From positions 23,866,069 to 23,930,068 of the forward strand of contig NC_133104.1 in NCBI RefSeq assembly GCF_022965805.1: 64,000 bases of DNA. The letters run 5' to 3'. The notes beneath the pieces were generated by a model. That model was not told where the DNA came from and did no database searches. It worked only from the letters and a program-made list of their open reading frames with translations. The position numbers and the translations under genes were made by a program. Origin of the DNA: Primulina eburnea. Its lineage: Eukaryota > Streptophyta > Magnoliopsida > Lamiales > Gesneriaceae. Shown one piece after another: positions 8,373 to 63,616 of this stretch (positions within the stretch are counted from its first letter, which is position 1; every line of letters begins with the position of its first letter).

Positions 8373-8375
8373 AGG

Positions 8376-16778: not shown

Positions 16779-16780
16779 AC

Positions 16781-39885: not shown

Positions 39886-40308
39886 CCTATTGTTTCGACT
39901 TTGATTGTTGCACTCCCAAGAGAAGGTTGTCCACAAATAGTATAATTCGGTGAGTCCGAATATCGTATCCACTGGGAAGCTAAGGTAATTACAAGTCCAC
40001 TGCAATGTCTTTTTGTTTTTGTATTTTTTTTTTTTGTATTTTTTTAATGGTTTGAATCTTTAATTGGTAATTTTTAATTGTTCAAATTTTAATTTAAGTA
40101 GTTGAGATTAAAGGATCCACTCTTGGTATTTTAATAAAGTTAACATTAATGAAAATTATTGAAAGCCACATAATAAAATGGTTCCAATATATATTAAATA
40201 ATCATATTTTTATTATGTTATATATTATTATCTTATAAGTATATAATATATACCAAAACTTGTAAATGTTGTCAAGTATTTATTGTGCTATATATAAATT
40301 TGTAAACA

Positions 40309-40560
40309 ATAAATCAAGGTTCCCACTTTAAAAGGTTGGTAAACCAAACAAACATTTAAATGGTACCAACAAATTAATATTATGATATTAATATATAATA
40401 AATCAAGGCATCCACTTTAAATGGTTGGTAAAACCAAACAAACATTTAAATGGTACCAATAAATTAATATTATGATATATTCATATATAATAAATCAAGG
40501 CATCCACTTTAAATGGTTGGTAATACCAAACTAACATTTAAATGGCTCCAAGAATTGAGT
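40309..40560 (-). repeat. Tandem repeat of about 90 bp in the Athila LTR, three copies
   Basis: Units begin ATAAATCAAGG at 40309, 40398 and 40490 (spacing 89 and 92) and contain ACTTTAAATGGTTGGTAA and ACATTTAAATGG. The 5' LTR has only two, from about 62541 and 62632. Confidence 0.88.
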
Positions 40561-40954
40561 GTAACATATACCAACAATAAATCAAAACTCCCACTTATAA
40601 ATAGGGTATAATAATACTTAAATAAATAAATATAACATAAACAATAAATAATGATTAAATAATATAAAACATAGATTCTTACTTTTTAATAACCTTATTA
40701 TCATGCCAATAGTTTCACCTTTTCAGCTCAACTTTGGGAAGTTAGCTACTCATTATTCAAAGTGTAAAACTTTGAATATGAATTTAACATGCTAATTATA
40801 TTTAAATGAAGAAATAAAGGAAAAACAAAGAGAGAAATATTGTTGTGGGGACCCGGACGCTAATCATTTTCTTAATCATCTTTGGGATTTAATTATCAAT
40901 TAATATAAAACAGGGTCTAAAAATTTTTCTTTTTAAAGTACAAGTGCGGAAGGT

Positions 40955-41279
40955 CACTACAAGAAAAGTGGGTTTCCGCGGCGTGCAATATGCGCCGCGA
41001 AATTGCACGCTGCGACGCACGCTGTAAAGTTGAAAGCCGTCTTAAGTTTGACACTATTGACGGCGTGCGATTTACGCTATGGTTTAGTCTACTAACGGCG
41101 TGCAGAGTATGCGCAGATATTACTTTCCGCAGCGTGCTTTTGATGCACGCCGTTATTTCTGTAAGTACAACAATATTAACAGCGCACATATTATGCACGC
41201 CGTTAAAAGCACTATTCGCAGCGTGCTTTTAATGCACGCTGTTGATAACGTGCTGAAGAAAATCATTTTTCTTGTAGTG
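40955..41279. mobile_element. CACTA MITE, 325 bp
   Basis: Perfect terminal inverted repeat CACTACAAGAAAA at both ends and a 3-bp target duplication GGT (40952-40954 and 41280-41282), both CACTA hallmarks. The interior has repeated GCGTGCNNTATGCGC- and GCACGCCGTT-like words in both orientations. The two related LTRs at about 49500 and 57722 read GCGGAAGGTAATGG across the site, giving the uninterrupted target. Confidence 0.95.
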
Positions 41280-43018
41280 GGTAATGGCATCAATCTAATA
41301 TACATCTCAGTATAAAAGTACAATAATGTACAATACTCACTCAAACTAATCTAAGGTTTAACTACTAAATTTCAAGTATTAAACTAAGTCTACAATAAGT
41401 CCGGAATCACCACTCTAAACTCGTCTTCTCTCGTCATCTTCTTGACCCCGATCTTGTCCCACCTGTTGTCATGCACACATACAAACAAGACAACAGCCGG
41501 ATAACTCCGGTGAGAATAAATCCCAGTATAAACAATGTATACATGGAATTAACTGAATTAACATAGAAGCATGCATTATATCTTTGCACATGTATCTAAA
41601 ATCAAACAACATGTATCAATATTAATCTGTAAATAAAACATGAATCGTACTCTACGAAACATAATCAATACAGGTCTGTAAATCAAATCTAGTCTCAATA
41701 TCTAGGACTCAACTCATCTCTCATTCTAATCTAGGGATCCCAGTGAATAGGAATGTAACAAATCTCCCACCTATCTCTTACATTCGGGGTGGTTGAAATT
41801 GATACGTTTCTATTTACGGACTTGGCCCTCGCTGTATCGAATATCTATGATAAGAGCTACTCTACTCATAATCACATCGATACGACCAAACGTCCGGTGT
41901 CTTGGAGTATCTACCAAGACTATACCTAGTCTGACAATGTGCAATGGGTCAGTGACGTCTCTGTCATAGTCTGGCCCCTCTGTCAGTGACTCTTATTCAA
42001 TAGCTCTCCGCTTTCTACTTCATATCTCAGTAGAATAAACATAATCATTAAAACATAAAGGTATAAAATCAATACCATACAAGTATGTGGTTTAGGGAAA
42101 CTCGAGTAGAATCTAACTCAAGTCGATCTCCCAATAAACATCAATTTATACATTTCTCTTCGCGATCTGATGAAGACGAAGTCTCGTATCCCAATCTGTC
42201 CATATCCAAACCTGATAATGACAATCATATAAATACCATATCAGTATATAACTCAATTCGAGACATGTTCTGATCAATACTCCAATCGGTACACAATCTG
42301 ATCAATGTCAACGATATAACAATGAATCTCAATCAATCTACATCAACTGATGTTTCGACAGCATATCAATACAGTCTTGTAATCCCGTTAATCTCAACAT
42401 CACAGATGTCACATCCAAATTCATAATCAATACCATATCATCATTCTTCTAATTCCAGTATATCAATATCTATCAATTTCAACTCAAGAGATGCTGGAAT
42501 TCATAACACAGACATACGGTATAATTTCTTCGATCTGATTTCACAAATATACTGAATAATCTATCCAGAACACATAAGAATAATCATCTCTCTATTCTTG
42601 AATCAAGAACAATACAAATCTAAGGTTCAATCTCAATCAATATATTTCGAAATTCATAACAATTGTATAAACAGTCTATTCGTCAATCTGACTTCGATTA
42701 TACAATACTTACGGTAGTAGAAACACCATATCTGAATTAAATTCAGTTCTGACAACATAATATTTCCAAAATATCTCAAAACGTGATAAAACTTACGTCT
42801 TTGTGTAGCCCGTAGAAAGAGGAATACGATACTGCTTTCTGATTCAAATTCTGATACACGGATATCTCAAAATCCTAATTTACATCAATGGAAAGCTCTA
42901 AAGAGAGGCTTGAGAGGAAACTCACGATTTCTTCTTCTGAAATCATGAGAATCAGATGCATATATATATATAGCTCAGTTGCATGGCAAACAAAAGGCTA
43001 AAACTTCATACTGCACGT

Positions 43019-43190
43019 TGCACCGCGGGTGCGCTCTGATTATTACAGCGGGTGCGCTCTGTCTACTGTAGCCACACCGCGGGTGCGCTCTGTCTGGCAC
43101 CGCGGGTGCGGTGTTGCTACTGTAAAAATACTCCACCTTACTGCCACTCCACCACGAGTGCGGTCTCTTCCTCACCGCGGGTGCGGTCCA
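43019..43190 (-). repeat. GC-rich CACCGCGGGTGCG cassette
   Basis: Six units of CACCGCGGGTGCGCTCTG or CACCGCGGGTGCGGT and variants, lying about 80-250 bp from the U3 start of the solo LTR (which runs on the minus strand). CCGCGG is palindromic. Confidence 0.9.
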
Positions 43191-43901
43191 TCAATTTTCA
43201 AAATTCAAATTTTCTGTCCATGCAACATCTCATAATCTTGTCTTATCAATTCTATAATTCTTGGGCATTACAATTATGGACTCAAAGGTTTGTTCATAAA
43301 ATGACTGATATCTCAATAAATTACAATGCACCCCTATTTATAGCCAAATTTGGGAAGACAACCATAAATAAAATATTATTTTTTATACATAAGTCTTCAT
43401 TGGTCTTCCAAGAAATTAATATTTTAATACACATCACTTTTGAAAATCTTCCCATCCGAATTTTCTTCTCCACATAAAAACAAATATGTAGATATCTGAG
43501 TTGTTTGAATTGTGGTATTTTTTTTAACCTTTTGACCAAGTAATTTGAGAGATATGGTTAAAATACTAGAGCATGGTAAAACTGTCACTTCTTTGGTAAC
43601 TTTAGTTGTTGCTTAATTTGATCCCATTTGTGAGAAGATTTTTATCTCATGCTTGCCACCAATATTGTAGATATTAACATCAAATTTCTACAGGTCCAAG
43701 AATCATCTTAATCCATTTGCAACGCCAAGTTTATTCTTGTTTTATCGAACCTGTAAAAAATAGTAAAAACTTATAATTACACAACAACTTATATTTTATA
43801 CAATTTATTATAAAACATATAATATTTAAACATTTAATAAAAAAAACTATATATTTATATTATAAAAAATTTAATTAATATACAATTTTTTATCTTTATC
43901 A

Positions 43902-45122
43902 CACTCCCAACGAGCTTATTGTTAGTCCATAGCAATTTAAGCGTTAATATCAACAAAAAACATATTGATTAATTTAAATAGAAATGTAATCAGAACTATC
44001 CAACTGTTTAAATTAAATTTGAAAACTGTCAAAGTAATATCAAGATCATTATAATTATAATTTATGAAATAATCTGAACTGATCAATTCACAGCTTATTT
44101 TCAGGTAGTTAAATGTACATGGCCTTCAGAAATTCCTAGTAAGAGTCTCAACTCCATATCCTCACAGGTTAATAAGTGTTTCAATTTATGGGAATGATTT
44201 CTCCCATGGAGTTAGAATACAGATAAATGCTCAGGAAAATGGTTTACAGAATGCAGATAGACAAACGAGCCAAACTAATCAAAACATAAGAAATCCATTG
44301 ATTCAAAATCCAGTTGTTCTTATTATATATTTTTTTCTTGATTTTTTTTTTCTTTTACATCATGGAATCAGACTAAGTTTATGCTTCTTGACCACATATT
44401 TATTTAATTTTTACAATGTATTTCTCTCTTTCTTTCTTTTTTTTTTCTTTTTTTATTTGTATTTTTATGAGAGATAAATGGGTCGCAGCATATAACTTAA
44501 AAATTACATAGATCTTCAACATCTTTCTTTTTTTTTCTTTTTTTTCTTTTTCAGGAAATATCAATTTTTTTTCAAAATAAGAACACAAGATCTAAACAAT
44601 AGATAGCCTCTCTGATGATTAATAAAGGCTCGCAAACTGTTTTCTCAATCCTCTCCACTCACTCAAAAAATATGTGTGTGTTTAAAAATTTTAGGCACTC
44701 TTATCAGGTATATCTTGGGACATATACTTTAATAACTGATTTTATCACAATGGTTAATCATTCAAAAAGATTTCATAAATCATATTTTTATAGTGATCAA
44801 AATATTAAAATTGACTTTTTTTTTCAAAAAAAAATTTAAACATCCTTAGATAGCTTAATACAATTTCAAATCTAAACCTTTCAAACATGTAAGGTATGAT
44901 ACTCTTGCAAAATTACTAAGATACAAACAATAAACATGTTTTTATTTTAAAATAATTTTTTTTTTTAATTTTTAAGTTTGTTCTCCCCCCAATCAGAATA
45001 TGAAATTGTTCCTAATGTCAAAATAACTATTAATAAAGAGCACATAATGAAAGAGATATCACCTGAAATTTTATTGAAGATAACAAACTGAAACAAACGC
45101 AAACCAATCCACGATTTTTGAA
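43902..45122 (-). other. Noncoding stretch between the LOG-like gene and the 3' LTR
   Basis: No ORF. It holds the polypurine tract next to the LTR (GTTGGGAGTG on the minus strand, about 43902-43911). A-rich tracts on the minus strand lie at 44430-44460, 44525-44555 and around 44820 and 44960; any of these could be a relic of a polyadenylated captured transcript, but this cannot be shown here. Confidence 0.5.
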
Positions 45123-45761
45123 TCAATGATCCAACTTTCTTTTCTTACTGCTTGATTGCGACCAATTAATATTTGTTATCATCGGATTAGGCTTATGAAC
45201 AAAAGCTTCCAGATCATCAATTAATTGGTCGGCATTCGAAGCACATATGAGCATCCGTCGTGAATTTTCTGAAATGAAATTTTGTTCCACAGCTTTATCA
45301 ATAAATGTCAACAAACTGTCATAATAATTATTGTTATTCAACAGGCCCACAGATTTATTATGGATATTAAGTTGAGCCCAAGAAACAGTGTGAAAAATTT
45401 CTTCTAATGTACCAAAACCACCTGGTAGTGCGATAAAAGCATCAGAAATTTCAATCATTTTGGTGATTCTTTCATACATAGAAGAAACTTTTAATTTCTC
45501 CCCAATCGTAACACCTGTAATATTTCCTTCAGCTAAAGCTGTAGGAATAATACATAAAACCTGACTACCTCAAAGATGCGTAGATGTTGAAACAGATCTC
45601 ATTAACCCAATATTACCTCCCCCATATACCAAGTGAATTTTTCTCTCAGCCAATATCTTTCCAAGATTATTCGCTGCTTCTACAAATACTTCATTTTTTC
45701 CAGAACTCGACCCACAAAATACACAAATATTTTTCAATGTTTGTGCAGAGGATCCAACCAT
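45123..45761 (-). pseudogene. Captured LOG-family gene (cytokinin-activating phosphoribohydrolase-like), intronless
   Basis: LOG enzymes release active cytokinin base from its riboside 5'-monophosphate. A 212-codon frame runs from [20 protein letters not shown] to SSKKRKLDH, the full family length, with one TGA at codon 64 (45570-45572). Family motifs: FCGSSSG (15-21), [11 protein letters not shown] (44-54), PGGFGTLEE (113-121; consensus PGGxGTxxE), WAQLNIHNKSVGLLN (128-142). The MHxRKxxM motif reads MYERITKM, so the arginine is kept but the histidine and lysine are changed. The KKRK tail is unusual. Plant LOG genes normally have several introns; this has none. It lies on the element's sense strand between integrase and 3' LTR, where Athila carries an env-like ORF. 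A TTTTCGCAG acceptor-like site ends 20 bp before the ATG. The codon-64 stop means the full protein is not made unless read through. Confidence 0.9.
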
Positions 45762-45920
45762 TTTTTTACTTTCTTTTTTGTCTGCGAAAATAGAGAGAAA
45801 GATGAGAGATTTTATGGGGTAATATGTTATCATGACAAAACTATGGGTCATAGCTGTAAGCAGAATAACAATAAAAATAATAATGACACACATACATATA
45901 AACAGTAGTGTGATTGTGGC

Positions 45921-46512
45921 TCACAATTTTCCTCTGGTTTTGCATCCAGAAACGGCTTCAACGCCTTCTATAAGTCGAGGATATGCTTCCCATCCAATTT
46001 TCTTATAAATTGGCAAACATGGTTATTTTTAGTTGGATTCCCAAGACTATGACACTAATCTTGAAATTGTTTCCATAAACGGAGAAGTTCAATATGCACA
46101 TGTCCACTAGAATGCGTCTCAAGAGTCAATAAGATGTTATCTAAAGACTCCTTACTCAGCCCATTCTTAATAAAACCAATTTTATCTTCTCTGTTATCGG
46201 AAACACATCCCAAAGATCTGCATCGTTTGTCACAAGTCCATTTGCACACTTATGACAAACCCCTAACTTTTTGGCCCTTCGTTTTTTCGTATAAGTGCTT
46301 TTTCCTAATCCAGGCAAATACCGAATGAGCAATGATTGTGGAACTTCTCCTCCTAATCGGACCTTAGCTTCTATTACAAGACGAATATATTCTGAAATTC
46401 CTTTTCGCATTAACAATCTCAATCTTTCACACCTACCTGCATAAATTTTTCTTAGAACATTTTCAGAAACAGAGGTAAAATATTTACAAATTTTTGAGAG
46501 ATTTTCAGCCAT
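45921..46512 (-). pseudogene. Unidentified cysteine-rich protein, extra ORF of the Athila element
   Basis: Starts MAENLSKICKYFTSVSENVL at 46512 on the sense strand of the element, about 150 bp after integrase and 160 bp before the LOG-like gene. It has a helical N-terminus with basic patches, a basic run (YTKKRRAKKLGVCHKC) and then, after a one-base frameshift near 46245, a second cysteine cluster (CDKRCRSLGC) and a tail to a TAG near 46056. The same frame then stays open to a TGA at 45921. A basic run just before a CxxC...C...C cluster is reminiscent of small cysteine-rich nucleic-acid-binding proteins of filamentous plant RNA viruses, but this is an impression, not an identification. It could also be a host zinc-finger fragment. 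Confidence 0.5.
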
Positions 46513-46663
46513 TTTGAAAAGAAAAAAAATGATTTTTTTATTTTTGTATCAGCAATTGTGGGAAACTGATTTAACCGACTATGAGAGTCACGGAGTACCG
46601 TTATCCGCCATTTAACCGGGAAAATAAAAAGATTAAGGAAACCTGAAATAAAAACAAACAAAA

Positions 46664-49405
46664 TTAAATGCAACATAAAAATTTAAGGATCAGAAAGGGA
46701 AATAAACTCTTCTTGAAATATTTCATTTTCCAAAAATGTTTAAGACTTTGTCCATTCACTTTAAAAATATCACCATTTTTAGGATTTTCAATATCCACAG
46801 CTCCATAAGGATACACATGCTTTACAACATATGGTCCTGTCCATCTAGATCGTAATTTTCCTGAGAATATGTGAAGTCGAGAATTATAAAGCAAAACTTT
46901 TTTACCATTCTCAAAAGATTTTATATGAATTGTCTTATCATGAAATAATTTGATTTTTGCTTTATAAATCGTTGAATTCTCATACGCATCATTTCTGAGT
47001 TCATCAAGTTCATTAAGTTGCAATTTGCGCAATTTGTTGCAATCATCCATGCTTGAATTAAAAGTTTTGATCACCCAATAAGCTTTATGTTCCAATTCCA
47101 CAAGCAAATGGCAATGTTTTCCGTAAACCAACCTATAGGGAGACATATTCAATTATGTTTTAAAAGTTGTTCGATATACCCAAAGTGCATCATAAAGTCG
47201 CAGATACCAATCTTTTCTATTTGAGTTAACAGTTTTTTCAAAAATTTTCTTTATCTCTCTATTAGCTAATTCAACTTGCCCATTTGTTTGAGGATGATAA
47301 GGAGTAGTTACTTTGTGAGTAATTCCATATTTTTTCATTAATGAAGCAAATGATTTATTAACAAAGTGAGTTCTCCCATCACTTATCATGGCTCGAGGAA
47401 TTCCAAATCTACTAAAAATATTTTCTTTCAAAAATTTGATGATGATTTTATGATAATTTGTTCGACATGGAATTGCCTCTATCCATTTGGAAACATAATC
47501 AACTGCAACTAAAATATACAAGTATCCAAACGACGGTGAAAAAGGTCTCATAAAATCAATTCTCCAACAGTCAAAGATTTCAATTTCAATTTCAATGATA
47601 GGATTCAAAGGCATCATATTTCTTTTTGAAATCGCACCCAATTTTTGACAATTTTCACAGATCTTGCAGATTTAGTGGGTGTCTTTAAACAAAGTGGGCC
47701 AATAAAATCTACACTGCAAAATTTTTGCAACCGTTTTCTTTGAAGAAAAATTTTCTCCGCATGCTTCTGAATGACAATTTAATGACACTACTTACCATTT
47801 TGTTTTGTATGCAACATCGAAAAATTTGATCTGGGCAATACTTGAACAGATACGGATCATCCCTATAAAAAATTTTACCTCATTCAAAAATTTTCTTTTA
47901 TCTTGAGAACTCCATTGCGGTGGCATTTTTCCTGACACGAGAAAATTTACTATGTTAGAAAACCAAGGTGTAGTAGTAACTGAAAATAGATGTTCATCAG
48001 GAAAATTATCGTAAATTGGTGTCATTTCACAAGATGATCTTGTTACTAGTTTCGATAAATGATCGGCTACGACATTCTCGGTTCCTTTTTTTATCTTCAA
48101 TCACAATGTCAATTCTTGGAGCAACAAAATCCATCGTATCAGTCGTGTCTTTGCATCCTGTTTGGTCAACAAATATCTAATAGCAGAATGATCAGTAAAC
48201 ACAATAGTCGTTGATCCAATCAAATAAGAACGAAATTTATCTAATGCAAATATTACAGCAAGTAGTTCTTTTTCAGTTGTGGAGTAATTCATTTGATCAT
48301 TGTTTAAAGTTCTACTTGCATAATATATCATGTAAGGCTTACCGTTTCTTCTTTGACCCAGTAATACATCGACTGCATAATCACTCGCATTGCACATGAT
48401 TTCAAATGGTAAAGACCAATCAGGAGGTTGCATGATAGGAGCTGATGTTAAATGTCGAATGATTTTATCAAAAGCATTTTGACATTCTTGAGTCCACTCA
48501 AGTGCAGTTTCTTTTGTTAAGAGGTTACAAATGAGTTTAGAGATTGAACTAAAGTCTTTTATAAATCTCCTATAAAATCCAGCATGTCCCAAAAATGAGC
48601 GAATTTCTTTAATGGTTTTTAGAGGGGGTAAATTCGCAATGACATCAACTTTGGTTTTATCAACTTCAATTCCATGAGATGACACGAAATGTCCTAGAAC
48701 AATCCCAGAAGTAATCATGTAATGACATTTTTCCCAATTTAAATTAAGACATTTTTCCTCGCATCTTTTTAAAACTTTTTCCAAATTTTCAAGACAATTA
48801 TCAAATGTATTCCCAAAAACAGTTAAATCATCCATGAAAATCTCCAAACAATTTTCAACCATGTCGCTAAAAATGCTTAGCATACATCTTTGAAATGTGG
48901 CTGGGGCATTACATAATCCAAATGTCATCCTTCTAAATGCAAATGTTCCAAAAGGACATGTGAATGTAGTTTTATCTTGATCTTCGAGTGCAATGGGAAT
49001 TTGATAATAACCTGAATATCCATAAAAAAAAAAAACAGTAGTATGGATGACCTGCTACTCTTTCTAAAATTTGATTCAAAAATGTTAATGGAAAATGATC
49101 TTTTCTAGTGGCTTCATTTAATTTTCTATAATCAATACACATCCGCCAACTAGATGGGACTTGACTTGTTAACAATTCACCTTTTTCATTTTTTATCATT
49201 GTGATGCCAGATTTTTTTGGAACTACTTCTGTTGGGCTTACCCACTTACTATCAGAAATAGGGTAGATAATCCCAACATCAAGTATTTTGAGAACTTCAG
49301 TTTTCACAACATCTTTCATGTGTGGATTTAATCTCCTTTGTGGTTGTTGAGATGTTTTTGCATTTTCTTCTAAGTGAATTTTGTGAGTGAAAATTAGTGG
49401 ATTAA
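46664..49405 (-). pseudogene. Athila element pol: RT, RNase H, integrase
   Basis: Minus-strand pol after the nested insertion. RT begins with KTEVLKILDVGIIYPISDSK and WRMCIDYRKLNEAT at 49319-48972. A run of A at about 49021-49032 breaks the frame. It resumes at 48928 with [16 protein letters not shown] and the catalytic FMDDLTVFG, then RNase H ([37 protein letters not shown]). 48100-47792 holds the RNase H end (ENVVADHLSKL). Integrase is at 47641-47153 ([35 protein letters not shown]) and 47152-46664 ([42 protein letters not shown]). Stops and shifts between pieces show decay. Upstream, NPLIFTHKIHLEE runs to the insertion point at 49405. Confidence 0.93.
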
Positions 49406-50760
49406 TGTGAGTACCCGGACGCTAATCAAGTTCTTAATCATCATTGGGACTAATTAATCAATTATAATAAACAGGGTCTAAATTTTTTTTTTAAAAATGC
49501 GGAAGGTAATGGAATCAAACTCCTATACATATCAGTATAAAAGTATAACTCTGATAAAATATACAATCATACACATCTCAGGTTCAACCACTAACTATCA
49601 AGTGTTTAAACCCTATCTCTAGTCCAAGGCCGTAGTCTCCACGCTACTCGATCTTTCTTCACCTTTGTCACCCTGAACCTGTCCCACCTGTTGTCATGCA
49701 CACATACAGACAAGAAAACAGCCGGATAACTCCGGTGAGATATAAATATCCCAGTATAAACAATGTATCAATGCAATCATATAAAACATATACAAAAGCA
49801 GAAACAATCATTAAAAACATGTATCCAATCTGACTACATGAATTAATACGAATCTGTATTTAAAACAATGTCTTGTTATCTTATCTCAATTTATTTCTAA
49901 TCTAGGGATCCCAATCTAATTTAGACTTTGGTATGCTGTATCGAATTTCTACAATAGACGTCGATCTACATCTAAGCTCATCGATACACCGTAAGTCTAG
50001 AGTCTCAGCGGTTCTGACAGAGACTCTGCGGTTCTGCCCTAGCTAGGCTGATCTGCCCTAGACTCAACCTCTGACTCTGCTCTAATTCAATAAATTAACA
50101 TATCAATCTGATAATCTGCAAATATCAACGCAATAAAAAAAAGTATGTGATTTAGGGAAACTCAAGTCAAACCTAACTCGAGTTGTGCAATCCCGAATCA
50201 ACATTTATTTATACCTTTCTTGCTGTCGCTCTGATACAGTCGAAGTCTTGATTCAAAGTCTGTCACTGTTCAATCTGGCAATGAAAATATCAATATTCTG
50301 TATCAATATTCTAATCAAATCACAACATCTCTCTTTTATCAGATTCTGACGGTTCAACAGTACAATCTTGCGATACTGATAATATGATATCAGTCTAAAC
50401 CAATTCCAATAATTTACAATCAATCACCGTACAATCTGATACCATTTCTAGTCCATTTCATTCTGAAATTCATAACAATTCCATATTCAGCCCGTTTCTT
50501 AATCTGACTTCGATTCTACGCTGTCTAACATGTCAAGAACAACATATATGACGTGTATTCAATTCTAACAACATCATAATTTCCAAACATGTCAAAACGT
50601 AGTAAAACTTACGTCTAGGTGAAGCCTGTGTTGATAGGAACATAGTACCGAAGTCGGAATTAAAATCTAACGGACGGATTGATCGTAAAATCGAATTCTA
50701 AAATTTAAAAGCCAATTTCCTCGGAGCTTCGATTTCTTTTTCCTTTCTGAAGAAAGTTGC

Positions 50761-50763
<3 letters not shown>

Positions 50764-50831
<68 letters not shown>

Positions 50832-50840
50832 TATATATAT
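50764..50840. repeat. (AT)n microsatellite in the 3' LTR
   Basis: A long AT dinucleotide run with one short AAAT interruption. It is clearly longer than the equivalent in the 5' LTR (58978-59028). The tyrosine/isoleucine-repeat frames over it are artefacts. Confidence 0.97.
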
Positions 50841-50885
50841 ACCAACGTACATGCAAAAATCCAAGTGGCTCGGTGTGCCTACTGC

Positions 50886-51085
50886 ACGTCTCGCGCATAT
50901 GCGCGCCCACTTTCCGCGCATATGCGCGCCCTATTCGGCGCATATGCGCGAGGTTTCTGCTCAAAATACCCCCCTCTCGGGTTGTCTCGCGCATGTGCGC
51001 GAGTTTAAGGCGCGCATGTGCGCCAACCCTACTGGAACCCTCGCGCATGTGCGTGCATATAGTCGCGCATGTGCGCCGATGCTAC
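50886..51085 (-). repeat. CGCGCATATGCGCG / CGCGCATGTGCGCG cassette, 3' LTR
   Basis: Seven units of a palindrome, TCGCGCATATGCGCGC or TCGCGCATGTGCGCGA and variants, spaced about 20-45 bp, about 120-320 bp from the U3 start of this minus-strand LTR. Confidence 0.93.
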
Positions 51086-51207
51086 TGTTCTCGCACATCA
51101 ATTTTCACACGTGATCTCATTTCGTGTCTCGGTTAGCCTTTTCACAATCGTCTCGATTAAAAATCTATAATCGTAATTTAACACGACATAAAATCTCGGG
51201 CATTACA

Positions 51208-51221
51208 TTTCTCCCCCCCTA
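51208..51221 (-). promoter_or_regulatory. Polypurine tract of chromovirus 2
   Basis: Minus strand reads TTAGGGGGGGAGAAA directly before the 3' LTR start TGTAATGCCC. Confidence 0.9.
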
Positions 51222-51689
51222 AGATACGATTTCGTCCTCGAAATCACAAACATTCAATCGTATCAATAAGGAATATATATATACAAAACTGTATAATAAA
51301 TTTACATTATCGAAACAACTCTGGGAATTCTTGTCTCATATCTGATTCAGTCTCCCAAGTTGCTTCTTCAGTGCCATGACGAGTCCATTGAACTTTTACA
51401 AGTGGAATAGTCTTCGTTCTGAGCTGTTTTTCTTTACGATCAATAATCTGAATCGGTTTTTCCATATATCTCAACATCTTATCCAGTTCGGCCTCGTCTG
51501 GTTGAATAGCATGTGAAGCATCAGGAAGATATTTCCTTAACAACGATACATGAAAGACATCATGTATCCCAGATAATGAAGGCGGTAAAGCAAGTCGATA
51601 GGCACGATCTCCTATCTTCTCAAGAATTTCATAAGGCCCAATGTATCGTGGCACTACAAGAAAAACCACATACAACAACACACATACGA

Positions 51690-52510
51690 CAACGGTTTTT
51701 GTGCAAAACCGTTGTCGTAGAGTTTTTAACAACGGTTTTAGCCAAAACCGTTGTCTTTTTGGGATCAAAGACAACGGTTTTAAACAACTGTTGTCTTTGG
51801 GGGGTCAAAGACAACGGTTTTAGGGTCAATAACAACGGTTCATAGAACCGTTGTCTATTAGCGTGTTTTTTTTGGGCTACGACAACGGTTTTTAAAAACC
51901 GTTGTCTATTAGCGGTTTTTTTTTTGCTACGACAACGGTTTTTAAAAACCGTTGTCTATTAGCGTTTCTTCTTTGGCCTACGACAACGGTTTTTAAAACC
52001 GTTGTCTATTATTGTGTTTTTTTGGACAATGACAACGGTTTTTTCAAACCGTTGTCTATTAGCGGTTTTTTTCGAGCTACGACAACGGTTTTTAAAAAAC
52101 CGTTGTCGTAGAATTTTTTAAAATAATTTGTAGCGTGTATTTTTAGACAATCGACAACGGTTTAAGAAAACACAACGTTAATTAGCGACGGTTTTAGCGA
52201 CGGTTTTAGGACAAAACACAACGTAAATTAGCGACGGTTTCATATATACCGTCGCTAAACTCATTTTAGCGATGGTTTAGCCAAATCCCGTCGCGAATTT
52301 CAAAAATTCGATCCCGCCTTGTTTTCCCTCCATTTGTAGCGACGGTTATATACATACCATCGCTACATTCATATTAGCGACGGTTTAAACAAAAACCGTT
52401 GCTATATTTTGCGACAGCTTCATGTAAAACCGTCGCTATATTGATTATAGCGACGGTATGCAAAACGTCTGTCGCTAAATTTAGCGACGCTTAAGACAAA
52501 ACCCGTCGCA
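51690..52510. repeat. Left subterminal array of the CACTA element
   Basis: Outer zone (51690-52190): many copies of ACAACGGTTTT paired with AAAACCGTTGT, often with AGCGNTTTTTT spacers. Inner zone (52185-52510): GCGACGGTTT with AAACCGTCGC or variants. Such repeats suit subterminal transposase-binding sites known in CACTA elements. Confidence 0.9.
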
Positions 52511-52559
52511 GATTTAAAAAATTCAATCCCGCCTATTTCTCCCCCCATTTTCTTCCACC

Positions 52560-52860
52560 ACTCTCTATAAATACATACAAATTCACTCCATTTTCTTCCA
52601 CTTCACTTCACCAAACTTAAATTTTTTCTCATTTACACGATTTTACAACTTCATAACACTTAAAATTTTTATCACTTACACAATTTTATCACTTCACAAC
52701 ACTTAAAATTTTTATCTCTTACACGATTTTTTTATCATTTCAAAACAATTAAAATTTTATCTTTTACACGATTTTATTACTTCACGACATTTAAAGTTTT
52801 TATCTCTTACAAGATTGTACCAATTCACAATACAAATTTATAAAATTCTTAATTTTTTTT
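52560..52860 (+). promoter_or_regulatory. CACTA centre: TATA-like box followed by tandem repeats
   Basis: CTCTCTATAAATACAT at about 52561-52576 is a good plant TATA match, read on the plus strand. From about 52625 to 52830 a unit of some 50-55 bp is repeated four times (TTACACGATTTTA...ACACTTAAAATTTTTATC). There is no ORF after it, so this may be the remnant promoter and leader of a lost transposase gene. Confidence 0.5.
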
Positions 52861-52879
52861 TTATTTTACGTAAAATATT

Positions 52880-53245
52880 AGCGACGGACTTAAAAATCGT
52901 CGCAAAATAGCGACAGTATTTTAAAATAAATACTGTCGCTACATTTAGCGACGGGTTTTAAAACCGTCGCAATAAATATTAGCGACGGTTTTAAAAAAAC
53001 CGTCGCAAAATGCTGCTACGACAACGGTTTTATTTGCGACGGTTTTCATTGTCGTCGCAAATTTTAATAGCAAAATCGTTGTCGTTGATAGAAAATACAA
53101 CGGTTTAACACCGTTGCAAAACCGTTGTCGTTGGTAGAAAAGACAACGGTTTAAAACCGTTGTCGTTGAAGATACTTTCAACAACACCCTCAGTTACAAC
53201 AGTCGAAAATGGCCTACGTTTATCCGTTGTCGTTTGGCGTTTTTG
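52880..53245. repeat. Right subterminal array of the CACTA element
   Basis: Mirror order of the left array: GCGACGG/CCGTCGC words first (52880-53045), then ACAACGG/CCGTTGT words towards the terminus (53025-53245). Confidence 0.9.
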
Positions 53246-55566
53246 TTGTAGTGTGGAGACAGTTTCCCTTTCTTGCCAAATCTGACAACTCCTCTGAAAG
53301 GTGAAATCTTTAGAAATACTCGGTCTCCTACCTCAAATACCAACGGTCAACGTCGAACATTGGCATATTTGGCTTGTCTGTCTTGTGCTGCCTTCATTTT
53401 CTTCCGAATTATCTTCACTTTTTCTGTCATATCTCTGATCATATCAGGTCCAATCTCAGGTACTTTAGAGATATCATCCTTCTTTCCGTACAACGCTTCA
53501 AATGGTGCCATTTCAATACTCGTCTGATAGCTGTTGTTGTACGAAAACTCACAAAGAGGCAATGCATCTTGCCAAATAGTGCCAAAATCTAGCACTACTG
53601 CTCTCATCATATCCTCCAGTGTTTGGATAGTCCGCTCTGACTGTCCGTCGGTCTGTGGATGATATGCGGTACTCAGATGTAACTTCGTACCGAGAGCCTG
53701 CAATAAACTCTGCCAGAAGTGCGAAGTAAATCGAGGATCAAGGTCTGATACGATAGACTTCGGCACTCCATGTAATCTGACCACTTCTCTGACATAGATC
53801 TCTGCCATCTGGTCAAATCTGTACGTCATCTTGTACGGAATAAAACATGCGGATTTGGTCAATCTGTCAATAACGACCCAAATCGCATCACAACCTCGGG
53901 AAGAACGCGGTAGCTGCGTCACAAAATCCATGGAAATGTGATCCCATATCCATTCAGGAATGGACAAACTCTGTAATAAACCTCCTGGTTTCTTTCTCTC
54001 TGCTTTCACCTGTTGGCAATTCAGACATTTGGAAACAAATTCGGCAATGTCAGTCTTCATTTGTTTCCACCAAAACTGTCTTTTCAAATCGTTGTACATC
54101 TTTCTGCCACCAGGATGAATACTGAATCGACTGTTGTCCGCTTCTGACAATATCTGTCGTCTCAAATCTGAAAAATTCGGCAAAACCAGACGATTATTCA
54201 CATACAATACATTATCCTGTACTTGATACTCCGATCGATGCCCTGTTCTGACCATCGCTACTGATTTCTGTACATTCTGATCAACTTTCTGAGCTGCCTT
54301 AATTCTTAAGATCAAATCTGGTTCTACTTGCACTATATAGAGTCTCAACGGTCTATAATCTTTTTCAAATGCTAATCCAGACAAACAGCAGTATTCTATC
54401 AAATTTGAAACACCAATCGTCGATAAGGATAAAGAACATACCTTTCGACTCAGTGCGTCTGCTGCTGCATTAGACTTTCCTGGATAATATTTGATTTCAC
54501 AATCAAAATCTTTAAGCAAATCAAGCCATCTTCGCTGTATCATATTCAATTCGGATTGTGAAACCAGATATTTCAAACTCTTATGATCAGAATATATATC
54601 AAACTTCTCCCCGTAAAGATAATGTCGCCATATCTTTAATGCAAAGACAATGGCTGTCAATTCAAGGTCATGAATTGGATAACGGGTCTCATGTGGTTTA
54701 AGTTGTCTTGAGGCATAAGCAATAACATGCCCTCGTTGCATCAGCACACATCCCAACCCTCTGTGAGAAGCGTCGCAATAAACCACAAAATTACCAGTAC
54801 CGGATGGAATAGTCAACACTGGGGCACTGGTCAACCTCTTTTTCAACTCCAGAAAACTGGTCTCGCATTCTTCAGACCAAACAAATGGAGCATTCTTCTG
54901 AGTCAACTGAGTAATTGGTTTAGCTATACTCGAGAAATCTTTAATAAAACGGCGGTAATATCCTGCTAAACCCATGAAACTGAGAATTTCGGGTACTGAC
55001 GTCGGTCTTGGCCAAGAAATCACGGCTTCCACTTTACTGGGATCCACCGATATCCCATCTCCGGATATAATATGACCCAGAAATACTACCTGTCTTAACC
55101 AAAACTCACATTTTGACAGTTTAGCATATAATTTCTTAGCCCTTAAAATTCGCAACACAGTTCTTAAATACTCAGCATGCTCACTCATATTCTTTGAATA
55201 AATCAAAATATCGTCGATGAAAATAATCACAAAATCATCGAGATATTTCTGGAAAATATGGTTCATCAATCCCATAAATACAGCTGGAGCATTCGTCAAA
55301 CCAAATGGCATGACAATAAATTCATAGTGTCCATACCTGGTTCTGAATGTTGTCTTTGAGATATCAGAATCTCTGACTCTCAGCTGATGGTATCCCGATC
55401 TCAAATCGATCTTGGAATATACTGAAGAACCCTGCAACTGATCGAATAAATCATCAATACGAGGCAAAGGATATTTATTCTTTATCGTTGCCTTGTTCAG
55501 TTGCCGATAGTCGATACAGAGTCTCATCGAACCGTCTTTCTTTCTCTCAAACAGTACTGGAGCACC

Positions 55567-57372
55567 TCAAGGAGAAACACTCGGTCTGATGTACCCCTTG
55601 GCCAGTAAGTCTTCCAGCTGATTCTTCAATTCTTTCAATTCAACTGGTGCCATTCTGTACGGAGCTCTAGAGATCGGCACTGTACCTGACATCAATTCAA
55701 TGCTGAAGTCTATCTCTCTAACTGGAGGTAATCCCGGGATCTCATCTGGGAAGACATCATCAAACTCACGTACCACTGGCAGGTCTGCCAATGCTGGACT
55801 CGACTTCAGTAAATCTACTGAATATAGAAGGAATCCTTCTGCTCCTTTCTGTAACAATCGAGTCATAGATAATACGGATATTAAAGGAATTCTCGATCTA
55901 GAACCCTTACCGTAAAATTTCCACTCTTCAGCCATATCTGGTATGAATCTCACTATTTTGTGGAAAAAATCAACTGTAGCTCTGTACTTGGTCAGCATAT
56001 CAATACCGATAATACAATCAAAGTCAAACAATCTAAGTACGATGCAATCTAACTCAATCTCATGCCCGTCATACTGTAGCATACAATGCTTAACATAATT
56101 TACGGATATCAAACCTGTCCCCAAAGGCGAAGAGACAGACACTACAGTAGCTAAAGACTCTACAGGCAATGCATGACTTAATGCAAATCGTTCAGAAATA
56201 AATGTGTGTGAAGCACCGGTATCAATTAATACATAAGCAGGGTAACCACATAAAGAACAGTTACCTGCCACAACATCATCTGGTGCTTCCTGGGCCTGCT
56301 CCTCTGTCAAAGCGAATACTCTGACCTGCTGTCTAGGAGGCTGGCTACCCGTCTGGCTTCCTCCTGGCCTCTGCTGTGACTGAGCTGGCGCTGGCTGAAA
56401 TGTGTGGACAGCAGCTGATCGTCTCTCAGTCTGTGCTGCTGATCCTGATGACTCGGCCCCTTGAGATCTTTGGGAACCTCTCTGGGGACACACTTTAGCA
56501 AAGTGTCCCGGCTGGTTACAGATGTTGCAACTACCAGTCACTCCCTGGCATTGTTCAGTTGCATGTCTTCCTCCGCAAGTCTTGCAATAAACTCCAGTGT
56601 AACTCTGGATCTGTCTGGAACCACCGGAGCTAGAAGAACTACTGCCAGATTTCTTGAATTGCTTTCCTCTGGCTTTCAAAAATTCTTTCTTTCTTCCACT
56701 GCTACTGCCACCCTCAAATCTGGGAGGTGGTTGCTGTGGTCTCGGTGCTGGAGGCACAAATGAAGCACTTTTCTGTCTCATCAGATCGGCTTCTACTCCC
56801 TTAGCTCTGTTCAAGGCGTCAGTAAAATTATTCGGTCGCCCTGTGTTCACCAATGTGAAAATATAGGGGTTCAGGCCATTGATGAACTGGTCGGCAGTAG
56901 CTTCCTCGCTGTCAGCCACATGTGGAGCAAATTTCAACAAGGTGGAGAATTTGGACACGTATTCTTCTATGTTCATCTGTCCTTGCTTTAGATTGGCAAA
57001 TTCCGCCCCCTTGTCCTTTTGGTATGACACTGGAAAGAATCGTTGATAAAACTCAGTTCTGAATATATTCCAGGTAATAGTCGTACCTCTATGCTCCATG
57101 GCTCTCTTTCTCGTAATCCACCAGTCCTTTGCAACATCGTGTAACTGGTGTCCAATCAATTTCACTCTCTTCTCGTCTGTATACTCCAAGGATTCGAACA
57201 ACATCTCTATATCATCGAGCCAACTCTCGCATTCTACAGCGTTCTCTGTTCCTTTCAAGGTTGGCGGATGAAATGACTGAAATCGTTTCAGTAATGTTTC
57301 CATTGGAGTCAGGGAAACATCCATTGGAGGATTTGATGTACTTCCCTGTTCTGGTACTCGTCTCGGAGGCAT
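55567..57372 (-). CDS. Chromovirus 2 gag-protease (601 codons)
   Basis: Open frame from MPPRRVPEQGSTSNPPMD to a TGA that replaces a tryptophan codon of the RT N-terminus. Capsid domain at residues about 50-210 (ESWLDDIEMLFESLEY, DWWITRKRAME, FYQRFFPVSYQKDKGAEFAN, MNIEEYVSKFSTLLKFAPHV). A basic, serine-rich linker. Two zinc knuckles: CKTCGGRHATEQC and CNICNQPGHFAKVC. Protease with active site IDTGASHTFIS and CIIGIDMLTKYRATVDF. Then the linker to RT (FPDEIPGLPPVREIDFSIEL). It would assemble virus-like particles and process the polyprotein. The start is supported by the leader and by similarity to the MPPRR start of chromovirus 1. It is intact apart from the terminal nonsense codon. Confidence 0.93.
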   Translation of the reverse strand: MPPRRVPEQGSTSNPPMDVSLTPMETLLKRFQSFHPPTLKGTENAVECESWLDDIEMLFESLEYTDEKRVKLIGHQLHDVAKDWWITRKRAMEHRGTTITWNIFRTEFYQRFFPVSYQKDKGAEFANLKQGQMNIEEYVSKFSTLLKFAPHVADSEEATADQFINGLNPYIFTLVNTGRPNNFTDALNRAKGVEADLMRQKSASFVPPAPRPQQPPPRFEGGSSSGRKKEFLKARGKQFKKSGSSSSSSGGSRQIQSYTGVYCKTCGGRHATEQCQGVTGSCNICNQPGHFAKVCPQRGSQRSQGAESSGSAAQTERRSAAVHTFQPAPAQSQQRPGGSQTGSQPPRQQVRVFALTEEQAQEAPDDVVAGNCSLCGYPAYVLIDTGASHTFISERFALSHALPVESLATVVSVSSPLGTGLISVNYVKHCMLQYDGHEIELDCIVLRLFDFDCIIGIDMLTKYRATVDFFHKIVRFIPDMAEEWKFYGKGSRSRIPLISVLSMTRLLQKGAEGFLLYSVDLLKSSPALADLPVVREFDDVFPDEIPGLPPVREIDFSIELMSGTVPISRAPYRMAPVELKELKNQLEDLLAKGYIRPSVSP

Positions 57373-57614
57373 ATCTGATAATCAAATACATTAGTAACAA
57401 ATACCACAATTCTGTTTCAATCCTCCTCTGATCATCTTACTGCTGATCTAGAATCATTACTGATCCAATCTCAATAAAACATATTACTATATCAAATCAG
57501 ATAAACAAGTAACATGTATTAAAGCAGTAAGACATGCTAGCATTCAAAAGCAGGAAAGAAAACCTCAATCTACCCCGCTCACTAGCCTCTTCTATCTCAA
57601 TCTAAAGGATCTAT

Positions 57615-57627
57615 CGCTCTGATACCA
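57615..57627 (-). promoter_or_regulatory. Primer-binding site (initiator tRNA-Met), chromovirus 2
   Basis: CGCTCTGATACCA on the plus strand is the complement of TGGTATCAGAGCG, five bases inside the 5' LTR. Confidence 0.92.
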
Positions 57628-58974
57628 CCTGTTGTGGGGACCCGGACGCTAATCAAGTTCTTAATCATCATTGGGACTAATTAATCAATTATAATAAACA
57701 GGGTCTAATTTTTTTTTTAAATGCGGAAGGTAATGGAATCAAACTCATACACATATCAGTATAAAAGTATAACTCTGATAAAATATACAATCATACACAT
57801 CTCAGGTTCAACCACTAACTATCAAGTGTTTAAACCCTATCTCTAGTCCAAGGCCGAAGTCTCCACGCTACTCGATCTTTCTTCACCTTTGTCACCCTGA
57901 ACCTGTCCCACCTGTTGTCATGCACACATACAGACAAGACAACAGCCGGATAACTCCGGTGAGATATAAATATCCCAGTATAAACAATGTATCAATGCAA
58001 TCATATAAAACATATATAAAAGCATAAACAATCATTAAAAACATGTATCCAATCTGACTACATGAATTAATACGAATCTGTATTTAAAACAATGTCTTGT
58101 TATCTTATCTCAACTTATTTCTAATCTAGGGATCCCAATCTAATTTAGACTTTGGTATGCTGTATCGAATGTCTACAATAGACGTCGATCTACATCTAAG
58201 CTCATTGATACACCGTAAGTCTAGAGTCTCAGCGGTTCTGACAAAGACTCGGCGGTTCTGCCATAGCTAAGCTGATCTGCCCTAGACTAAACCTCTGACT
58301 CTGCTCTAAGTCAATAAATTAACATATCAATCTGATAATCTGCAAATATCAATGCAATAAAATAAAGTATGTGATTTAGGGAAACTCAAAACCTAACTCG
58401 AGTTGTGCAATCCCGAATAAACATTTATTTATACCTTTCTTGCTGTCGCTCTGATACAGTCGAAGTCTTGATTCAAAGTCTGTCACTGTTGGTAATGACA
58501 ATATCAATATTCTGTATCAATATTCTAATCAAATCACAACATCTCTGTTTTATCAGATTCTGACGGTTCAACAATACAATCTTGCGATACTGATAATATG
58601 ATATCAGTCTAAACCAATTCCAATAATTTACAATCAATCACCGTACAATCTGATATCATTTCTAGTCAATTTCATTCTGAAATTCATAACAATTCCATAT
58701 TCAGTCCGTTTCTTAATCTGACTTCGATTCTACGCTGTCTAACATGTCAAGAACAACATATATGACGTGTATTCAAGTCTAACAACATCATAATTTCCAA
58801 ACATGTCAAAACGTAGTAAAACTTACGTCCAGGTGAAGCCTGTGTTGAAAGGAACACAGTACCGAAGTCGGATTTAAAATATAACGGACGGATTGATCGT
58901 AACATCGAATTCTAAAATTTAAAAGCCAACTTCCTCGGAGCTTCGATTTCTTTTTCCTTTCTGAAGAAAGTTGC

Positions 58975-58977
<3 letters not shown>

Positions 58978-59028
<51 letters not shown>
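58978..59028. repeat. (AT)n microsatellite in the 5' LTR
   Basis: Uninterrupted AT run of about 50 bp, shorter than its partner at 50764-50840. Confidence 0.97.
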
Positions 59029-59029
<1 letters not shown>

Positions 59030-59074
59030 AACGTACATGCAAAAAGCCAAGTGGGTCGGTTTACCTACTGCACG

Positions 59075-59283
59075 TCTCGCGCATATGCGTGGCCACTTTC
59101 CGCGCATATGCGCGACTCGCGCATATGCGCGCCCTATTCGGCGCATATGCGCGAGGCTTCTGCTCAAAATACCCTCCTCTCGGGTTGTCTCGCGCATGTG
59201 CGCGAGTTTAAGTCGTGCATGTGCGCCAACCCTACTGGAACCCTCGTGCATGTGCGTGCATATAGTCGCGCAGGTGCGCCGAT
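59075..59283 (-). repeat. CGCGCATATGCGCG / CGCGCATGTGCGCG cassette, 5' LTR
   Basis: Eight units, one more than in the 3' LTR: an additional CGACTCGCGCATATGCGC unit lies near 59112-59130. Several units have lost CpG sites by transition (CGTGCATGTGCG). Confidence 0.93.
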
Positions 59284-59419
59284 GCTACTGTTCTCGCACA
59301 TCAATTTTCATACGTGATCTCATTTCGTGTCTCGGTTAGCCTTTTCATAATCGTCTCGATTAAAAATCTATAATCGTAATTTAACACGACATAAAATCTC
59401 GGCCATTACAATTAATGCC

Positions 59420-60173
59420 CTTGAGATCTTTTAGTGTCCAACCAATTGCATTTTTATGTCTTTTAAGCATATCAAATAATTATCTTCTTGATCACTTGCT
59501 AGTTTGGAAGAAATTATCACCGGATATTTTTCATATTCTCCAAGAAATGCATATTTCAATTCTTCTGGCAAGGGTTTTAACTCCAATATGGGTGGTTCGT
59601 TTTTGTTCTCATATTTTTCCTCAAATTCTTTCTCTGATCCTGGTAACGAGTGATACCTGATAAAATTATCAAGATCAATTTCAATATTTTTTTAACAGTT
59701 TCAATTGAACAAATATCTAATTGATCACGAGTACTCCCCTTCTTGAATGTTTACTTCCACAAGAGTTTCAATAAGATTTTCATCTTCACTTTCATCTCCT
59801 TTGTCATGTGGTTGCTTACAAAGATTAAAAATTTTGAGCTCCAAGGTCATGTGACCAAATGACAACTTCATTATTCCATTCCTGCAATTTATAAGAGCAT
59901 TAGAAGTTGCTAAAAATGGACGACCCAAAATTACAGGAATTGCTTTACAATATTCGATAGGTTGTGTATCTAAAACTATGAAATCGACAAGATATACAAA
60001 GTTATCAACTTGGACCAACACGTTTTCTACCATACCTCTTGGCACTTTAACAGATCTATCGGCAAGTAAAAGTGTTACCAAAGTAGATTTTAACTCGCCT
60101 AGATTGAGTTCTTGACTGAATATGGAAGTAAATTCACACTAGCTCCAAGATCAAGCAAGGCTTTTTTAATCTT
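59420..60173 (-). pseudogene. Athila element protease and linker to RT
   Basis: Retropepsin-like domain: the active-site region LLDLGASVNLLPYS lies at about 60155-60115, followed by a shift or stop. 60081-59725 then reads VTLLLADRSVKVPRGMVENV with PVILGRPFLATSNALINCRN, the second half of the fold. The rest, to 59420, is a degenerate linker ending in LKDLKGI at the insertion point of chromovirus 2. The other side of that insertion (49405) continues with NPLIFTHK, so the nested element cut this linker. Confidence 0.85.
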
Positions 60174-61935
60174 TCATTCTTCAATAATACATGAAATAAT
60201 AGGACAACCAGGGTCTTTGTATTTCAAATTATTATTATTTTGAATGATTGCACTTACTTGTTCGGCTAAAAATGCTTTCTTTTTCACATTAAATTTTCTT
60301 TTCACAGTGCACAAGTCTTTCAAAAATTTGGTATATGATGATACCTGTTTTATTGCATCTAATAAAGGAATATTAACTTTTACTTGTTTAAAAATATCAT
60401 ATATATCAGAATTCAAATTTGATTTTTCTGTATTTTTCAATGCATGAGGGAATGGTGGTGACACTATCTGTTGAACCTCCTCTTCGCAAGTTATGGGTAC
60501 CACATCCTTACCCTTTGGAGTTGATTTATCATCATCTTCACAAGGTTCAGGAATGGATTTTTCAACAACCTTACCACTTCGAAGGGTAATAACAGATTTT
60601 ACCTGATCCATCGGTTGAGTTCCAGAAGTTCCAGTTTGTGAATGATGATCCTTAGGATTAGGCTGTGGTTGTGAAGGAAATTTACCTTTTTCATGAACAT
60701 TAAGTGCAGATGCAAATTTAGCAAGAGTATCTTTCAAATCTGTCATAGTTTGAGCAGTTTGAGTATCGATACTTGCTTTGCAATGAAAGAATTCAATAAA
60801 TCTTCCAAATTCTTTTTAGGTGGAGGAACATAACATGCATAATTTTGAAAATTTTGTTGATTTTGAAAATGTGGTTGTGGAAATTGTGCACCATTATCAT
60901 TCCTCCAACTAAAATTTGGATGATTTCGCCAACCTGGATTGTAATTTTGAGAAAATGGTTCAAAATTTGGCTTTTTGAAATTGTTCAAAACATTGACTTG
61001 TTCATGGAGACATTCTTTAAAAGAGGGAAAAGTGGGACAATCTTTTGTAGAATGATCACTTGTATCACAGATGTGACACGCAATTTTTTGAATAGCTTTT
61101 AATTGACCATTTTTTTTCCAATTCAAGTGCCTCAACTTTTCTTGCCAAAGAGGTAAATCTAGCTTGGAGATCATGTTCATCTTTGAGGGTGTACATACCT
61201 CCACCAGATGTGGGAGATTGAATCTTGTTTGATGGTTCGATTGTATCTATAGTGTTCCAATTTTGAGCATTTTCAGCTAATGAATCGAGATACTCAATTG
61301 CCTCATTGGATCTTTATCTTCAAATGTTCCATTACACATAAATTCAACCATTTGCCTATCTTTAGGTGTTAAGCCTTCATAAAATTGAGAAAAAACTCTC
61401 CAAATTTCAAAACCATGATGTGGACAAAGATTAAACAGTTCTTTGTATCTATTCCAACACTGATAAAAATTTCTACTTGTTTTTGAGTGAAAGTGATGAT
61501 TTGCCTTTTGAAAGAATTTGTTCTATGAGATGGAAAAAACTTTTTCAAAAATTGTTGTTGCAATTCATCCCAAGTTCGAATGGATCCCGATCTAAGATTT
61601 TGTAGCCAAGTTTTAGCTTTATCTTTTTAAAAAAAAGGAAAAAGCTTAAGTCGAATGGTGTTCATGCTACAATTTAGATCATTATATGTGTTGCACACTT
61701 CTTCAAACTCTCGTAAATGCATGTATGGATTTTCAAAATCTAAGCCATGAAAATTGAGTAAAAGTTGGATAATACCAGGCTTAAAATTGAAATGAGATGC
61801 ATCAGGGGGAAAAACTAGACATGAAGGTGCACTAGTACGTGTAGGATTCATGTGATCTCTAAGTGTTCTTCGTCTATCATGATCATGTTGAGATTGAATT
61901 TCATCTTCATTTTCTTGGATGAGTTCTTCCGCCAT
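60174..61935 (-). pseudogene. Athila element gag
   Basis: Starts at 61935 (MAEELIQENEDEIQSQHDHD). The typical Athila capsid region follows (FKPGIIQLLLNFHGLDFENP, MHLREFEEVCNTYNDLN, IRLKLFPF). A run of A at about 61622-61630 shifts the frame; a piece with QQQFLKKFFPSHRTNSFKRQ follows, further breaks lie at 61370-61200, and 61204-60743 contains a CCHC knuckle (CHICDTSDHSTKDC). 60746-60174 is the C-terminal part (SQPQPNPKDHHSQTGTSGTQ; VITLRSGKVVEK) up to protease. It is inactive through frameshifts. Confidence 0.9.
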
Positions 61936-62103
61936 GTTTTGTAAAAATAAAGGGTTATTTCGAATGAGTCGACCACTAAGTGTACGTGACCAAATGCTCT
62001 TGCAAATGCAAATGCAAAAGAATAAAAACACACAAAAGCAATAAAAATTCAAATAAAAAAATAAACTATAAACAAAATTAAATAGACTTGAAATTAAATT
62101 ATA

Positions 62104-62123
62104 CTTCTCCGGCAACGGCGCCA
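62104..62123 (-). promoter_or_regulatory. Primer-binding site of the Athila element
   Basis: The minus strand reads TGGCGCCGTTGCCGGAGAAG, the TGGCGCCGTTGCCGG site usual for Athila/Tat elements (tRNA-Asp is the primer commonly assigned), six bases inside the 5' LTR. Confidence 0.92.
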
Positions 62124-62129
62124 AAAAAT

Positions 62130-63611: not shown

Positions 63612-63616
63612 CCTAT

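Follow-up and report, generated by a model that had tools for sequence, protein, structure and literature searches.

The window analysed here, a stretch of 64,000 nucleotides from Primulina eburnea, contains an Athila-like LTR retrotransposon on its minus strand, and the env position of this element is occupied by an NABP-like gene followed by a gene of the LOG family, both in the sense orientation (Table 1). The matches to the Pfam families RVT_1, RNase H and rve lie in the Ty3/Gypsy order, while the LTR pair with TG..CA ends and the 5-bp target duplication are those of an Athila-type element, both in the window and in 9/9 of the dated copies described below. The primer binding site may be of the tRNA-Asp type, which is usual for Athila. 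The LTR divergence (K2P 0.050) corresponds to approximately 1.9 million years at an assumed LTR substitution rate of 1.3e-8. The window copy is an old, broken member of a high-copy family. Its anatomy bears out the original prediction of a LOG gene in sense between the integrase and the 3′ LTR of an Athila element, and the perfect CCTAT target duplication is seen at both ends. Several features go beyond that prediction: LOG shares the env position with the NABP-like gene, which comes first; the 3′ LTR is split by an insert of 2.4 kb; a further Gypsy element is nested inside; and gag-pol is fragmented.

Table 1. Features of the Athila-like element (window positions; an empty cell means that no value is given).
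Feature	Position	Strand	Remarks
Complete span of the Athila-like LTR retrotransposon, with its later insertions	39891..63611	minus	TG..CA ends; LTR pair; LTR K2P 0.050
Target site duplication CCTAT, left	39886..39890
Target site duplication CCTAT, right	63612..63616
5′ LTR	62130..63611	minus
3′ LTR, distal part	39891..40841	minus
Insert splitting the 3′ LTR, solo-LTR-like	40842..43272		2.4 kb; distantly resembles the nested Gypsy element's LTRs (piecewise 73-81%)
3′ LTR, proximal part	43273..43901	minus
Primer binding site TGGCGCCGTTGCCGG	62109..62123	minus	similar site in the nine dated copies
gag region with fragmented frame, approximate limits	59431..62127	minus	piece 60174-60815 matches a gag stretch of P0002
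Nested Gypsy element, later insertion	49406..59410	minus	10 kb; target duplication ATTAA; ORFs of 726 and 601 aa; LTR K2P 0.030
Fragmented region of reverse transcriptase, RNase H and integrase	46664..49421	minus
NABP-like gene (Carla_C4/Viral_NABP domain), frame broken, 3′ limit approximate	45967..46512	minus
Stretch upstream of the LOG start	45762..45821	minus	pyrimidine-rich tract with CAG; A-rich leader
LOG gene, intronless, broken by TGA	45123..45761	minus	Pfam and structure-chain matches
Non-coding spacer between LOG and the 3′ LTR	43902..45122	minus	common to family-1 copies

Other repeats are present elsewhere in the window. Direct repeats of 3.5 kb at 8373-11873 and 16437-19937 (94% identical, spacing 8064) belong to another LTR-type element. 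An integrase-like stretch at 230-734, on the opposite strand and 68% similar to 47156-47569, marks the end of another related element, and a tandem repeat of about 468 bp is found in two copies (91-96%) at 38089-38951.

The LOG frame comprises 213 codons without an intron (212 codons and the stop). Its translation matches the Pfam family Lysine_decarbox (E 4.2e-35), and the top solved chain is Arabidopsis At2g37210 (E 5.8e-57). The sequence PGGFGTLEE agrees with the PGGxGTxxE motif of the family, and R98, E121 and GGxGTxEE are all kept. The frame is split by an in-frame TGA at codon 64 (45570-45572); consequently, the window copy is not an intact gene. The frame had been described as full-length and intronless, which holds for the absence of an intron and for the motif, but not for an open frame. 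The nearest relative, P0001, is 92% identical and shows 16 differences over 212 positions, one of which is the stop; at three of these 16 it carries glycine.

The frame between the integrase and LOG is also broken in the window and shows a Pfam Carla_C4 match. Among its relatives, many of which have about 182 residues, Carla_C4 is matched in 21/26 and Viral_NABP in 20/26. The relative P0132 scores above the curated cut-off of both PF01623 and PF05515 (E 1.7e-7 and 1.1e-7). Two structure models predicted for NABP have low confidence, with mean pLDDT values of 63.9 and 52.1.

The distribution of the element was followed in the assembly from which the window derives (812 Mb), using a 32-mer shared without mismatch by the 31 LOG copies compared, namely those of 30 loci and that of the window. 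It occurs at 449 exact sites genome-wide, with none for the reversed control. With P0001 as the query, 1464 first-look candidates are obtained; the best 150 scored, ranked by similarity, all cover residues 1-212 at 97-99% identity, and 148 of them are free of stops. At the fetched loci of this group (family 1), the order LOG, spacer, LTR is seen in 30/30 cases; upstream of LOG, an NABP match is present in 29/30 (27 at full length) and the integrase in 27/30. The LOG, NABP and integrase sequences of the window each diverge to a similar degree, 4-6% at the DNA level, from the other copies. Both LTR regions were fetched for ten copies and nine yielded a pair, while no 5′ LTR lies within the stretch fetched for the tenth. 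The nine pairs have K2P values from 0 to 0.0102, three of them being identical, and all nine copies are flanked by perfect 5-bp target duplications, each different from the others. These differing duplications, together with the low LTR divergence, indicate that LOG has moved in many independent and recent insertions. The suggestion that the element may have spread the gene is thus supported, and the spread is larger than had been proposed: other copies of the element do carry LOG between the integrase and the 3′ LTR, and the outcomes named as refuting it, a one-off younger insertion or a separate resident gene, did not come about.

A second, diverged family is recovered with P0013 as the query, which gives 80 matches at 82-100% identity, followed by family 1 at 68%. 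In the 30 family-2 loci fetched (L037-L066), the integrase is found in 29/30, an NABP match in 30/30 and LOG in 30/30, in the order INT-NABP-LOG. LOG lacks an intron in both families. Downstream of LOG, a family-2 copy (L037) and the window have only 50 nt in common by blastn. No family-2 NABP match is unbroken over all 183 query residues (0/30); these copies contain an extra stretch close to the 3′ end which, in those inspected, is interrupted by stops or frame breaks and may reflect a lost gene or an intron. Public records list P0013 as 'LOG3-like [Primulina eburnea]', as though it were a host gene, and this entry would suit the alternative of a resident LOG gene distinct from the element, or of a processed copy inserted later into this single element. 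Such an origin is rejected as extremely improbable: the 30 family-1 loci all have LOG in the same place with the same flanks, the nine target duplications differ, the window LOG has diverged about as much as its NABP and integrase neighbours, the second family repeats the gene order, and the 32-mer recurs at hundreds of sites.

The comparison between the two families also provides a measure of selection. For LOG, dS is 1.12 and dN/dS is 0.222 (bootstrap 0.130-0.337); for the C-part of the integrase, the corresponding values are 1.14 and 0.103 (0.055-0.174), and the first 167 codons of NABP give a dN/dS of 0.21 (0.112-0.347). The equal dS of LOG and integrase fits joint descent, and the dN/dS of LOG is roughly double that of the integrase. 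The dN/dS comparison of element-borne copies proposed with the original prediction returns purifying selection between the families (0.222). With two diverged families sharing the same gene order, many independent recent insertions and purifying selection between the families, it is nearly certain that the element has inherited LOG as one of its own genes.

Within family 1, a systematic sample of 40 copies was taken (every fifth, at two offsets, from 100 of the 449 sites, all on C1-C4), in which 20/40 LOG frames are intact and 20/40 are broken. Variants were counted in 38 of these 40, two having been dropped for long gaps, together with L024 and the window (35 distinct sequences). Variants found in a single copy comprise 62 synonymous and 187 nonsynonymous changes, that is 1.06 of the neutral expectation, and shared variants comprise 25 and 54, or 0.76 of expectation; the difference between the two classes is not significant (p 0.24). 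Inserted LOG copies decay freely, and the constraint is visible on the line between the families. The even division into intact and broken frames, along with the neutral-looking single-copy changes, points to selection through transposition rather than through use by the host. The pN/pS of family-2 LOG (0.54, 18 distinct intact LOGs) counts against a simple story. For NABP, pN/pS within family 1 is 0.30 (16 distinct of 23 intact, 30 loci), and the comparison with L006, described below, gives 0.27. A family-1 LOG pN/pS of 0.23 was discarded as evidence, because the loci had been ranked by the LOG protein, and the systematic sample was used instead.

NABP also occurs without LOG. A 34-mer from the end of NABP has 358 sites genome-wide, with none for the control. 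On C1-C3, 54/70 of these sites have a sense LOG inside 1 kb and no LOG was found within 1 kb of the remaining 16/70, its presence being judged by the 32-mer sites, 18 family-2 matches and two further P0001 matches; conversely, the exact 34-mer lies upstream of 45/93 LOG 32-mer sites. A comparable arrangement is seen in L006 (1-3330), where an intact RNase H-integrase frame precedes an intact NABP frame and no LOG match is present in the approximately 980 nt after NABP. The blastn similarity between L006 and the window stops some 100 nt short of the LOG start. A search of the record set to which L006 belongs likewise gave no LOG, although an empty answer there carries little weight. L006 itself, obtained from a scan of genome contigs, is filed under a Candidatus Nomurabacteria MAG, and its plant retroelement genes identify it as a plant contaminant by content. 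Taken together, L006 and the 16/70 sites suggest that INT-NABP forms a wider backbone to which LOG was added or from which it can be lost, so that an element may have no need of LOG. These cases, and the values of 1.06 and 0.76 that cannot be told apart within family 1, would be expected if LOG were a passenger, captured once and copied by a successful element without any benefit. Against this stands the low dN/dS maintained over a dS of about 1.1, a distance at which the L037 and window sequences 3′ of LOG have become unrecognisable except for 50 nt. A passenger role is consequently considered improbable.

The sequence just upstream of LOG is conserved in both families. A TATAAAW motif is found at most 90 nt upstream in 29/30 family-1 and 30/30 family-2 copies, compared with 0.13 and 0.40 such motifs per 90 nt of spacer, and in the inspected copies of both families the distance from its first base to the end of a CAG is 34-36 nt. 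This CAG closes a pyrimidine-rich tract and precedes the start codon of LOG by about 17-25 nt in the copies inspected, and a YAG lies within 35 nt upstream of LOG in 30/30 and 29/30 copies of the two families. In the window, CATAAAA replaces TATAAAW. As judged from these motifs, the signal fits either a transcription start of its own or a splice acceptor. Expression from a spliced LTR transcript, in the manner of retroviral env, would account for the pyrimidine tract and for the CAG and YAG before the start. It is less readily reconciled with a TATAAAW lying where the TATA box for a start at the CAG would lie, at a frequency well above that of the spacers. Splicing is therefore regarded as quite possible, though not as the favoured mode, and the choice concerns only how LOG would be expressed.

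Relatives of both genes are present in other plants. In a tree of 121 LOG rows, 118 are separated from the two Arabidopsis LOGs and one bacterial-type sequence (96/93); the neighbours of the window LOG are P0001, next P0003, and next P0013/P0014. Reevesia, Diplodiscus, Xanthoceras and Paulownia are each named in several records of LOG relatives, and Populus is represented by three species. One Xanthoceras gene model fuses LOG with part of a gag sequence (63% over 38 residues, E 1e-11), a single and indirect sign that LOG sits in an element there. For NABP, 771 relatives are found at E 0.01 among 2887 candidates; the 120 listed include named Populus, Xanthoceras, Acer and Rhamnella sequences, with clusters of up to 566 members. 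Contigs of the same size (8723 and 4511 nt) and with a common source tag appear in both the LOG and the NABP lists, where 0.06 coincidences would be expected (for contigs of at least 2500 nt), which suggests that LOG and NABP are linked in other plants too. When the Primulina genome is queried with Arabidopsis LOG, all 150 scored matches are element-like, the scored copies being about 52-54% identical to At2g37210. Neither P0001 nor the NABP alignment gave a match in scans of viral contigs. Five viral-contig loci from the scan with the LOG alignment (34-45% identity) were not taken as element-borne.

Among 117 LOG relatives, R98 is kept in 111, E121 in 112 and GGxGTxEE in 103; R98 and E121 are residues that we take to be catalytic. 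The lysine of Arabidopsis LOG at position 99 (P0001 numbering), which adjoins R98, is mostly replaced in these relatives, most commonly by M (44), and substrate use may therefore have shifted. This replacement, together with the weaker constraint on LOG than on the integrase, speaks for an inherited LOG that serves the element by a route other than cytokinin signalling, such as activity on different nucleotides or a role in binding. The retention of R98 and of GGxGTxEE in most relatives and the dN/dS of 0.22 argue against it, and this alternative appears unlikely, though clearly less so than a passenger role.

Gypsy elements with a LOG gene are already known as a kind, as a LOG-type domain has been published for Citrus and Populus. 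The section concerned in PMC9289625 lists the YgdH domain, which occurs in LONELY GUY proteins, for consensus Gypsy elements from Citrus sinensis and C. clementina, and in one of Populus trichocarpa with the survey filter off, and cites an earlier report, Steinbauerova et al. 2011. These elements resemble the Primulina element in having the LOG-type domain inside, but that section gives the domain with no position, neighbour gene, selection, age or genomic copy number, whereas the present data add two families, the INT-NABP-LOG order, dating and dN/dS. In the literature searched, which contains few subscription papers, nothing was found on the genomic copy number, selection, age or NABP neighbour of element-borne LOG, and, as far as that search extends, the upstream Carla_C4/Viral_NABP gene beside LOG is new. 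The passages on Athila-type elements in PMC7264820 and PMC6317226 describe an env-like gene between pol and the 3′ LTR. The Primulina element shares with them the Ty3/Gypsy order, long LTRs, the 5-bp target duplication and extra sense frames between pol and the 3′ LTR, but its extra frames are an NABP-like protein and a gene of an enzyme family. Gypsy elements of Phalaenopsis with an AlkB-type RNA demethylase, as presented in the same part of PMC9289625, likewise combine a Gypsy lineage with a host-type enzyme gene; that enzyme was assayed in vitro, whereas the Primulina LOG is known from its sequence. Compared with plant LOGs (At2g37210, At5g11950), the element copies agree in Pfam family, length, PGGxGTxxE, R98 and E121, but differ in being element-borne, multi-copy and intronless, with lysine 99 mostly replaced. 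Compared with carlavirus NABPs (PF01623, PF05515), the domain matches exceed the curated cut-off, but the genes here belong to retroelements, and their products have about 182 residues.

Taking these data together, we prefer, with a probability of roughly 0.6, a reading that combines an inherited element LOG, a cytokinin function favouring dividing cells and a role for the NABP-like protein. A plant LOG mRNA would have been captured before the split of the two families. In active copies, LOG may be expressed from the conserved signal just upstream, by its own TATA-type start or by splicing of the LTR transcript. LOG enzymes make active cytokinin, and the predicted enzyme would free it from the cytokinin nucleotide where the element is expressed. 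The cytokinin would favour dividing, meristematic or germline-fated cells, so that new insertions could be inherited. Carlavirus NABPs suppress silencing; the NABP-like protein might similarly counter silencing, or else handle the element RNA. A broader proposal, offered tentatively, is that of a eudicot-wide, host-manipulating Athila lineage with an old two-gene env module, in which an anti-silencing NABP of RNA-virus type and a cytokinin enzyme with its own promoter would drive cell division and thereby bring insertions into the germline, with recent amplification in Primulina. The long-standing question of what makes plant retroelements retain genes at the env position becomes testable here, as the system offers an enzyme family of a known pathway, a simple assay, measurable selection and a young element. 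If LOG is active, mobile DNA would provide a plant genome with hundreds of cytokinin-activating genes. This bears on development, on the annotation of the LOG gene family (as with the 'LOG3-like' record) and on the possible exploitation of meristems by selfish DNA. Furthermore, the presence of a carlavirus-type domain in retroelements bears on the origin of that viral gene.

A further observation concerns the surroundings of NABP. The segments 625-666 and 1210-1306 of L024, located ahead of NABP and at its end, are near-identical at the DNA level in family 1, L037 and L006, while the coding part of NABP is mostly 35-80% identical in the three-way comparison of L024, L037 and L006. These two conserved blocks flanking NABP are perhaps cis-acting RNA or splicing signals.
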